Source: a virus. From it: a stretch of DNA of 29,907 nucleotides. The translations under genes were made by a program, and so were the position numbers. The stretch is from positions 1 through 29,907 of IMG/VR virus record IMGVR_UViG_3300005613_000302; one strand, 5' to 3'. Shown here one piece after another: positions 862 through 3,511 of the stretch. Each line of letters begins with the position of its first letter. The stretch's first letter is position 1. Below the pieces are notes generated by a model that saw nothing but the letters and a program-made list of their open reading frames with translations, had not been told where the DNA came from and ran no database searches.

Positions 862-1743
862 ATGCCGCGCAAGCGATTGACTCGTCAGCAGATTAAAGAA
901 GGGCTGGAACAGATTCCAGTCGAGCAAGTTTTGCTCGGTCATAGTCGCGCGCATGGTGTCGCACTCACTGCTAAACAATTGAAGTTTGCTGAGGAACTGG
1001 CCAGGGGCGAGAGCAAGGCGGGAGCGTATCGGAAGGCGTATAACACCAAAACGAGTCCAGGCGCTCAGAGCGTAGAAGGCGCCAGGCTGAGCAAGAACCC
1101 CAAGATCGCACTCCAGGTCGAGGCGATAAAGCTCGCATTGGAGGCGGAGAAGTATGCGACCCCCTTACATCTTCGGGCCTTGATAATCCAGAAGTTAACC
1201 GAGAAGGCGCTGGATCCCGACGTTAACCACGCCCAGCAACTACGCGCGCTTGAGTTGTTGGGGAAGGTCACAGAGATTGCCGCGTTCACTGAGCGCCGGG
1301 AGACCGTGCATGTACACGACGCGCAAACCCTGCGCGATAAGCTCATGCACTCCCTGCGCATGGTGGCCGACGCGCAGACGGTCGATTACCAGGATGCCGA
1401 CTCCCTGCTAGCCGAGCTTGCCGATGCGCCAGGCGACGACCCCACCCCACTCGAACCCCTGCCAGGCGAGACCCCACCAGCCCCCGACCCCCAAGATTCT
1501 GAGCGCGCAGGCGGCAATACTACGCATAGTAATCCGCTCAAAGAATCCGACGACTGTAACAATGTTACCGAGGATGACTGTAACAATGTTACGCATGATG
1601 AAAGTAACGATGTTACCGACTGTAACAATGTTACAGATGACGAGGAGACTGTAACACATGTTACAGTCGTTGCGAAAACACAACACTCAGACTGTAACGA
1701 TGGGGGTGGGGGTGTTGAATTATTGGAAGCTAAGGACAAGTGA
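862..1743 (+). CDS. terS: terminase small subunit (TerS)
   Basis: A 293-residue protein. Residues 35-85 (LTAKQLKFAEELARGESKAG..AYRKAYN..., then SVEGARLSKNPKI) match the helix-turn-helix region of Terminase_2-type small subunits, which recognise phage DNA and load it on the large subunit for packaging. Residues 100-170 are helical and probably oligomerise. From about 186 the chain becomes a Pro/Asp-rich linker, then a low-complexity tail with repeated CNNVT, SNDVT and TVTHVT units (231-269). That tail is long for the family and is the coded reading of the palindromic DNA array at 1555-1698. A weak GGAAG ribosome site precedes the ATG. The gene is GC-rich compared with TerL. TerL follows after one small gene, which supports the call. 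Confidence 0.85.
   Translation: MPRKRLTRQQIKEGLEQIPVEQVLLGHSRAHGVALTAKQLKFAEELARGESKAGAYRKAYNTKTSPGAQSVEGARLSKNPKIALQVEAIKLALEAEKYATPLHLRALIIQKLTEKALDPDVNHAQQLRALELLGKVTEIAAFTERRETVHVHDAQTLRDKLMHSLRMVADAQTVDYQDADSLLAELADAPGDDPTPLEPLPGETPPAPDPQDSERAGGNTTHSNPLKESDDCNNVTEDDCNNVTHDESNDVTDCNNVTDDEETVTHVTVVAKTQHSDCNDGGGGVELLEAKDK
1555..1698. repeat. array of GTAAC-N3-GTTAC palindromes inside terS
   Basis: Four palindromes GTAAC-N3-GTTAC start at 1556, 1580, 1604 and 1622. A fifth with a 4-base centre starts at 1651, and a half-site GTAAC lies at 1694. Start-to-start spacings are 24, 24, 18, 29 and 43. The strongest copies have 7-base arms CTGTAAC/GTTACAG (1620-1636 and 1649-1666). The first four lie in one codon phase (CNNVT), the fifth in another (VTHVT), so the DNA motif rather than the peptide seems to be kept. 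It could bind TerS (a pac-like site), the nearby winged-helix protein, or a replication initiator. Confidence 0.85.
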
Positions 1744-1797: not shown

Positions 1798-2022
1798 ATG
1801 ACTGAAGCTCAGAAGGAGATTTATCTTGTTATTGATGGCTGGTGGAAGAGGTATGGGTATGGGCCTTCTATTGATGAGATCATGAGTCTGACTGGTGAGC
1901 GCGGGCGCGGGAATGTTTCTAGGAAGATGTGGCGGCTGGTTGAGCTTGGCATCTGTAAGGGGATCAAGGGGAGGCCGCGCAGCATACGGCCTTCTTATCT
2001 AAGGGTGTATAACATTGAGTAA
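1798..2022 (+). CDS. LexA-like winged helix-turn-helix DNA-binding protein
   Basis: A 74-residue protein that matches the N-terminal DNA-binding domain of LexA almost end to end. It has an opening EAQKEIYLVIDGWW helix, a YGYGPSIDEIM turn (residues 20-29), a GNVSRKMWRLVELG recognition helix (38-51), and a KGRPRSIRP wing and tail (58-65). It has no S24 peptidase domain, so it cannot self-cleave as LexA does. The ATG follows a purine-rich AGGTGGGG. The 3' end overlaps the TerL start by 8 bases. The position between the two terminase genes, about 100-240 bases downstream of the palindrome array, suggests it may bind that array. It could be a transcription regulator or a packaging accessory factor. 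Confidence 0.7.
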   Translation: MTEAQKEIYLVIDGWWKRYGYGPSIDEIMSLTGERGRGNVSRKMWRLVELGICKGIKGRPRSIRPSYLRVYNIE

Positions 2023-3511
2023 AATTCTTGAGCTGATTGAGAAGTTGCCGGAGGGGGAGCGGGAGTCTCTCCTCCTTATGGCGCAGCAGTATCAAGATGC
2101 TCTTATGCGGGAGCAGGGGCAGAAGTCTTTTATGTCCTTTGTTAAGTCAATGTGGCCGGGATTTATCCACGGCAGGCACCACGCCGTTATGGCTAAGAAG
2201 TTTGAAGAGATTGCTGAGGGGAAGTTAAAGAGGCTGATTATTAACATGCCTCCCCGGCATACGAAGTCGGAGTTTGCATCCTATTTATTGCCGGCCTGGT
2301 TTTTAGGGAAGTACCCGGGCAAGAAGATCATCCAATGTTCGAACACGGCAGAACTGGCCGTTGGCTTTGGACGGAAGGTCAGGAACCTTGTGGACGGGGA
2401 GACGTATGCCAAGGTCTTCCCCAATGTATCCCTACGGCATGACTCAAAGGCGGCGGGCCGTTGGTCTACTAATGAGAACGGGGAATACTTCGCTATCGGG
2501 GTGGGGGGTACGGTAACTGGTAAGGGTGCCGACCTTTTGATTATTGACGATCCCCATTCGGAGCAAGAGGCGGCGCTGGCGTCCAATGACCCCAGCATTT
2601 ACGACAAAGTCTACGAGTGGTTTACATCCGGCCCACGGCAGCGTCTCCAACCTGGAGGCTCCATAGTCGTCGTGATGACCCGCTGGGGTAAGAGAGACTT
2701 AACCGGCCAAGTCTTAAAGGCGGCTGCTCAGAGGGGCGGGGAGGAATGGGAGGTTGTTGAGTTCCCAGCGATCCTTCCGTCGGGCAACCCCCTGTGGCCA
2801 GAATTTTGGTCGTTTGATGAACTAGACGCTCTGAGGAATGAACTGCCCAATCCCAAGTGGCAGGCTCAGTATCAGCAAAGCCCGACATCTGAGTCGGCTG
2901 CGATTATTAAGCGGGAGTGGTGGAAGATCTGGGAGGAGGAGAGCCCGCCCCCGTGTGACTACACTCTCATGGCCTGGGACACGGCGTTTGAGAAATCAAG
3001 CCGGGCTGACTACTCGGCAATGACACTTTGGGGAGTCTTTGAGCACCCAGATGATAACGGTATTTACCAAACCAACATTATTTTGTTGAATGCTTTTAGA
3101 GATCGGATGGAGTTTCCAGAACTAAAGAAAAGGGCGATAGAGCACTATAGGGACTGGGAGCCGGATTCGGTGATTATTGAGAAAAAAGCTTCTGGTGCGC
3201 CATTGATCTATGAAATGCGCGCAATGGGAATCCCGGTGCAGGAGTTTACCCCTGTACGCGGAAACGATAAGATTTCAAGGGTAAACGCTATTTCCGACTT
3301 ATTTGCATCAGGACGAGTATGGGCTCCCCCATCTCGATGGGCCGAAGAAGTAATTGATGAGGTCGCCAGTTTCCCCTCGGGGGAGCATGACGACTATGTG
3401 GATACCGTGTCCCTAGCAATGATGCGATTTCGTAAAGGTGGCTTTATCAAAACCCTCTTAGATGAGGAAGATGAGCCACGTGAATTTAGGCGGCATGTCG
3501 CCTACTACTAA
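2015..3511 (+). CDS. terL: terminase large subunit (TerL)
   Basis: A 498-residue packaging motor. The ATPase half has LIINMPPRHTKSE at 74-86 (a Walker A-like loop variant), GADLLIIDDP at 171-180 (Walker B) and VVVMTRWGKRDLTG at 218-231 (coupling motif). The C-terminal RNase H-like nuclease has MAWDTAFEKSSRADYSA at 319-335, VIIEKKASG at 386-394 and HDDYVD at 458-463, supplying the expected acidic metal ligands D322, E389 and D459/D460/D463. The start is TTG at 2015, 10 bases after AAGGG, overlapping the upstream gene by 8 bases; a later ATG (residue 22) would still keep all motifs. It cuts and translocates concatemeric DNA into the prohead through the portal encoded next. Confidence 0.95.
   Translation: MSKILELIEKLPEGERESLLLMAQQYQDALMREQGQKSFMSFVKSMWPGFIHGRHHAVMAKKFEEIAEGKLKRLIINMPPRHTKSEFASYLLPAWFLGKYPGKKIIQCSNTAELAVGFGRKVRNLVDGETYAKVFPNVSLRHDSKAAGRWSTNENGEYFAIGVGGTVTGKGADLLIIDDPHSEQEAALASNDPSIYDKVYEWFTSGPRQRLQPGGSIVVVMTRWGKRDLTGQVLKAAAQRGGEEWEVVEFPAILPSGNPLWPEFWSFDELDALRNELPNPKWQAQYQQSPTSESAAIIKREWWKIWEEESPPPCDYTLMAWDTAFEKSSRADYSAMTLWGVFEHPDDNGIYQTNIILLNAFRDRMEFPELKKRAIEHYRDWEPDSVIIEKKASGAPLIYEMRAMGIPVQEFTPVRGNDKISRVNAISDLFASGRVWAPPSRWAEEVIDEVASFPSGEHDDYVDTVSLAMMRFRKGGFIKTLLDEEDEPREFRRHVAYY

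Follow-up and report, generated by a model that had tools for sequence, protein, structure and literature searches.

The window analysed here is a virus record of 29,907 bases that has no repeats at its ends and falls well short of its relatives, which span 47 to 67 kb. It carries the terminase small-subunit gene (terS), a gene for a 74-amino-acid LexA-type winged-helix protein, and the terminase large-subunit gene (terL) (Table 1). An exact motif search of the window located five GTAAC-N3/4-GTTAC palindromes and a half-site within positions 1556 to 1698, where the codons form the C-terminal part of the TerS open reading frame. Four of the palindromes have the N3 spacer, the N4 palindrome has its core starting at position 1651, and the spacings through to the half-site are 24, 24, 18, 29, and 43 bases. 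All N3 palindromes and the half-site are in a single codon phase, and the copy at 1651 lies in another. The spacings, counts, and codon phases given in the preliminary description are therefore exact.

Table 1. Features of the array and adjoining genes in the window
Feature	Position	Strand	Remarks
terS, terminase small subunit	862..1743	+	phrog_51, E 3e-7; 3' end reads through the array
Copy of conserved element GCWTAGTAWTCCRCAC (ANNCAATC)	1524..1539	+	terS 3' end, just before the array; candidate pac/cos
Palindrome 1	1556..1568		GTAACAATGTTAC
Palindrome 2	1580..1592		GTAACAATGTTAC
Palindrome 3	1604..1616		GTAACGATGTTAC
Palindrome 4	1622..1634		GTAACAATGTTAC, dyad extends to CTGTAACAATGTTACAG
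Palindrome 5	1647..1668		N4 type, extended arms GACTGTAACA-CA-TGTTACAGTC
Half-site GTAAC	1694..1698	+	within ACTGTAACGATG
74-aa LexA-type winged-helix gene	1798..2022	+	PF01726; flanked by terS and terL in relatives; proposed target
terL, terminase large subunit	2015..3511	+	phrog_38, PF17289; proposed target operon

The array is far from a chance occurrence. Only 0.11 palindromes are expected in the whole 29.9-kb window, none of 100 dinucleotide shuffles reached five, and 11 of the window's 57 GTAAC/GTTAC half-sites fall within the 0.5% of its length that the array occupies. Across phages, the consensus half-site is GTAACA, 1 to 3 bp separate the half-sites in the dyads, and the flanking bases are phage specific. 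Spacer length ranges from N3 to N5, which is unusual for a rigid dimer, and an extended N4 or N5 copy like palindrome 5 is usual in relatives too. No good promoter was found adjoining the array in the window. Between terS and the lexA-like gene, at positions 1750 to 1797 and in most relatives, C-run/G-run inverted repeats are followed by T/A-rich DNA and resemble an intrinsic terminator.

Three queries, namely TerS, the LexA-like protein, and the palindrome motif, were used to gather relatives and yielded about a hundred related phage fragments; TerS and LexA-like protein queries against the INPHARED phage collection gave no match. The close relative L005, whose TerS is 83% identical, has six array copies to the window's five, with nearly invariant cores and variable spacers, and in both L005 and L006 the six copies lie inside the terS tail. 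Many other relatives carry one to three copies in the noncoding gap between terS and the lexA-like gene (L024, L036, L045, L055, L057, L059, L060, L081, L082, L088, L096, L099, and L100, among more), and in L035 the terS stop codon falls inside one copy. Most relatives recovered with TerS as the only query share this gene order and lack the palindrome. The motif had been expected at the terS 3' ends of relatives, which holds for the terS tails of L005 and L006, but elsewhere it lies mostly in the gap or is missing.

Because the palindromes are mostly noncoding in relatives, the comparison indicates that terS has extended into the sites, which do not need terS, and that this read-through is peculiar to the few phages of the window's small clade. 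Since terS runs through the array in that clade, selection appears to act on the DNA, as the preliminary description had supposed; its view of the array as a DNA-level feature bound by a symmetric, probably dimeric protein is likewise upheld. Its suggestion that the TerS tail may exist to host the sites is better read the other way round.

The same palindrome occurs elsewhere in these genomes. In long relatives it also lies upstream of an orphan ParB-like gene 8 to 10 kb from terS, a recurrence that held up when 80 ParB loci were compared. At these loci the sites are directly upstream of parB or in the leader of its operon (for example, at -32 in G003, -20 in L204, -48 in L173, -85 in L235, and -33/-50 in L217), with further sites upstream of the lexA-like gene (lex). 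Some contigs have a third site before a RecB/Cas4-like exonuclease gene that is divergent from RuvC/RusA-like genes, names that come from our reading of the sequences rather than from a family search. In the relatives, inverted-repeat sites are thus present both in the promoter region of the parB-like gene itself and elsewhere on the replicon that carries it. The parB-like gene was not found on the window contig, an incomplete record. The closest hint comes from L235, a contig with a ParB gene whose source metagenome also yielded L005: there GAGACTGTAACATTGTTAC lies 85 bases before the ParB gene, and its GACT flank is that of the window array.

The bases flanking the palindrome agree between loci of one phage. 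Flank identity between the lex site and other sites averages 0.56 within a phage, a value that includes shared ancestry, and 0.35 between phages (permutation p = 5e-5). The closely related L199 and L201 provide an example: their flanks differ in concert at the lex and parB sites, GC-type in one and CCTT/AAGG in the other (GC versus CTT), and nearly all of their shared neighboring proteins are about 86 to 99% identical. Their ParB-like proteins, among the least conserved of these neighbors, are 77% identical, with 138 of 202 positions identical in the N-terminal and DNA-binding part and 88 of 92 in the C-terminal coiled coil. No alternative palindromes common to the parB and lex regions were found in phages without GTAAC sites. 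Matches to GTAACGNNCGTTAC, for example in a capsid-like gene of G011, were judged coincidences because they lack the inner A..T and are found in both groups.

This distribution bears on whether the array is a pac site, that is, repeats bound by TerS to start packaging. Phages P1, P22, and SPP1 have pac sites inside their terminase genes, and that of P1 is a repeat array. The window array resembles these in being putative protein-binding DNA embedded in the terminase small-subunit gene, but its palindromes are repeated at distant loci of one genome and usually lie outside terS. Rather than marking a single locus per genome that is conserved with TerS, the palindromes are absent from many relatives whose TerS is about 46 to 55% identical, and the TerS proteins of L199 and L201 are 92% identical although the flanks have changed. 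Moreover, phages of both groups, with palindromes and without, keep a different, single-copy element at the terS end. This element, GCWTAGTAWTCCRCACANNCAATC, is nearly invariant and is conserved in 78 contexts around that end, is found in another reading frame or beyond terS in 16 of them, and has one copy in each of 9 of the 11 genomes, G001 and G013 lacking it at the stringency used. We infer that it is a better packaging-site (pac/cos) candidate than the palindromes. With this element at hand, and the same phage-specific palindromes recurring at parB and at the third site, TerS binding to the array as a pac site, one of the options of the preliminary description, is very unlikely.

The ParB-like protein encoded by the relatives belongs to phrog_1033 (E 2e-16 to 9e-21) and matches the Spo0J profile 1vz0 (E 2e-5). 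Noc, ParB, and KorB are among its best PDB folds (best E 5e-8), with Noc as the best structural match and with a fold match to the KorB structures 8qa8 and 8qa9. Its architecture combines a ParB/Noc/KorB-type nucleotide-binding fold, a helix-turn-helix (HTH), and a C-terminal coiled coil, so that both a ParB-fold N-terminal domain and an HTH are present, in the relatives' protein rather than in one of the window phage's own. A G-x-x-R-x-x-A-like stretch, GFHRYFA, which may bear on the binding of CTP or another NTP, is conserved. A ParABS partition system was rejected, as the ParA ATPase (PF13614) was absent from 16 contigs, which may be incomplete, while control genomes were positive. No tyrosine integrase was seen in the same number of contigs.

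Just upstream of the parB-like gene or operon, Rfam identifies RF02932, the "Betaproteobacteria-1 RNA" (E 4e-16 to 4e-18), at 1227 to 1345 in L144, 2453 to 2569 (-) in L150, and 3382 to 3504 (-) in L142; positions 2796 to 2851 of L140 resemble RF02278 below the cutoff. The presence of RF02932 beside parB points to a structured RNA carried by the phages and to hosts among the Betaproteobacteria, which are the probable hosts of this group.

Variation in the ParB-like protein follows the presence of the palindrome. Among 47 ParB clusters, palindromes occur in 17 of the 20 whose recognition helix starts with [KRH]MT and in 2 of the 27 without this motif (p 6e-8). In L184 and L192 palindromes lie just after terS and the records end before lex; counting these two, the figures become 19/20 and 2/27 (p 6e-10). 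Since the motif was picked after inspection of the data, more weight rests on a scan of alignment columns, in which ParB columns 81, 113, 115, and 132 pass p<1e-4 for palindrome presence and none of the 495 columns of the neighboring helicase does so. An AlphaFold model of the protein (pLDDT 87.6) places the recognition helix of the HTH at residues 132-141, with K132 at its start. On the helicase tree the palindrome state changes about 9 times, and the sister contrasts L198 versus L199/L200 and L233 versus L236 are concordant. There are exceptions: a K helix is present and palindromes are absent in the ParB cluster L190/L191/L195, and L218 and L237 show the reverse, palindromes in the absence of the strict motif. 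A post hoc association was noted between W116 and a T in position -1 (p 0.006), but distances between flanks were not significantly related to distances between ParB HTHs in a Mantel test, and a flank code linking ParB residues to flanking bases is therefore only suggestive.

A similar comparison can be made for the LexA-like protein, which might autoregulate through the array upstream of its own gene and also bind the parB sites. In relatives the array is immediately followed by the gene for this protein; CTGT, the Escherichia coli LexA half-site, is found in the arms of the window and G011 palindromes, and one change in the protein's recognition helix, G to R, accompanies the flank difference between L199 and L201. 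However, the recognition helix GRGNVxRK is identical in phages with and without palindromes, no LexA-like column relates to palindrome presence better than p 0.004, and serine at its variable position is paired with many different flanks. The LexA box CTGT-N8-ACAG is not matched, the window having N9/N10 spacing and many relatives missing CTGT, and sites occur at parB, 8 to 10 kb away, although lex is never far from terL. The LexA-like protein, another binder put forward in the preliminary description, is thus an unlikely one.

We judge it similarly improbable that a host-encoded or other phage-encoded dimeric regulator, such as a TetR-like protein, binds the palindromes. In Lachnospiraceae and Oscillospiraceae, pairs of the same 13-mer coincide with -35/-10 boxes, as a repressor operator would, and regulators of other families can thus use the palindrome. 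Against such a regulator, the concerted flank change with nearly all neighbors constant, together with the ParB helix association, points to a phage protein, and comparison of G001 with its relatives revealed no clear palindrome-specific gene, small HTH genes being covered in part only. The 13-mer in promoter-overlapping pairs of Firmicutes (L107-L109, L115, L117, L118, L120, L121, L123, and L125) and in Prevotella tandem repeats was judged convergent. Palindrome pairs were also seen in other, unrelated viral contigs (L023, L025-L029, and L031); in L023, L026, and L027, apparently unrelated phages, GTAACNATGTTAC pairs spaced 23 bases apart immediately precede a portal-like gene.

In our assessment, the array is probably a set of operators through which a phage ParB/KorB-like regulator acts on the lexA-like-terL operon, and the binders named in the preliminary description are probably wrong; a ParB-like protein was not among them because the parB gene is not in the window. 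Four computed results underlie this reading: the palindromes common to several loci, the within-phage match of their flanks, the link between recognition helix and palindrome, and the ParB fold. An orphan ParB-like protein, of a family best known for segregating chromosomes and plasmids, would bind the array as an operator cluster; it is encoded about 8 to 10 kb upstream of terS in relatives and off the window contig, and the window's own phage presumably encodes such a protein. The protein would bind its own operon, giving autoregulation, as well as the recombination/exonuclease region and the array before the lexA-like-terL operon, and could thereby coordinate early and packaging gene expression. 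Its binding to the sites is predicted from sequence patterns, and its nucleotide dependence is presumed. Sites 20 to 50 bases before parB starts, and the analogy with plasmid KorB, suggest that the mode would most likely be repression rather than activation.

More tentatively, and with some doubt, the ParB-like protein of each phage and its operator flanks may have coevolved toward differing specificities in an immunity-like diversifying circuit, in phages that would have no integrase and probably infect Betaproteobacteria. In such a circuit ParB would be the master regulator, silence recombination and packaging operons from afar by nucleotide-dependent sliding, and replace a lambda-type repressor.

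KorB has several palindromic operators across the RK2 replicon. This ParB-like protein of plasmid RK2 is a long-range repressor (PMC11790492), and the protein proposed here would be like it in using a ParB fold and HTH for transcriptional repression and in having several palindromic operators over a replicon. It is unlike KorB in being phage borne, in the palindrome used, in that ParA was not found, and in having operators before packaging genes. DNA sites of the nucleoid occlusion factor Noc and of Shigella VirB, also of the ParB family, serve roles other than partition (PMC10770331), and a nonpartition role at DNA sites is proposed here as well; the sites differ, and neither membrane binding nor antisilencing has evidence here. 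Phages and plasmids commonly carry orphan ParB-like proteins, whose DNA sites and targets are mostly unknown (PMC12704722). The protein described here resembles that group of phage proteins with a ParB-CTPase fold in being long branched, carried on mobile elements, and without ParA. Unlike that group, which the survey passages covered describe without DNA sites or target operons, it is here assigned proposed examples of both. Concrete sites and target operons are thereby put forward for an orphan phage ParB-like group, and L199/L201, a close ParB pair with different sites, make the proposal directly testable. If true, it would mean that a large group of uncultured phages uses a new type of global regulator.

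Two further readings of the array concern replication and RNA. If the array were part of a replication origin, with initiator sites and DnaA boxes, an indication would come from one subclade (L096, L097, and L099-L101), where two or three tandem DnaA boxes, TTATCCACA, and an AT-rich stretch lie beside or between the palindromes. Such boxes are absent at the array position in the window and most relatives, GC skew does not turn at the array, and the palindromes also precede parB and recombination genes. For the replication initiator mentioned in the preliminary description, DnaA boxes adjoin the palindromes in that subclade only, and an origin at the array has only a slight chance of being correct. 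Hairpins in mRNA for processing or attenuation are the least credible reading, and an extremely improbable one. Outer arms that vary yet remain complementary in many extended copies, and a spacer of 3 to 5 bases that suits a loop, would fit them, but the inner A..T of N3/N4 copies, which could not pair in so tight a loop, is largely retained, many copies have only 5-bp arms, and the ParB residue association is left unexplained. The DnaA boxes of the subclade precede the lexA-like gene at positions 2958 to 2990 in L096/L097, 902 to 922 in L099, and 2938 to 2958 in L100/L101.
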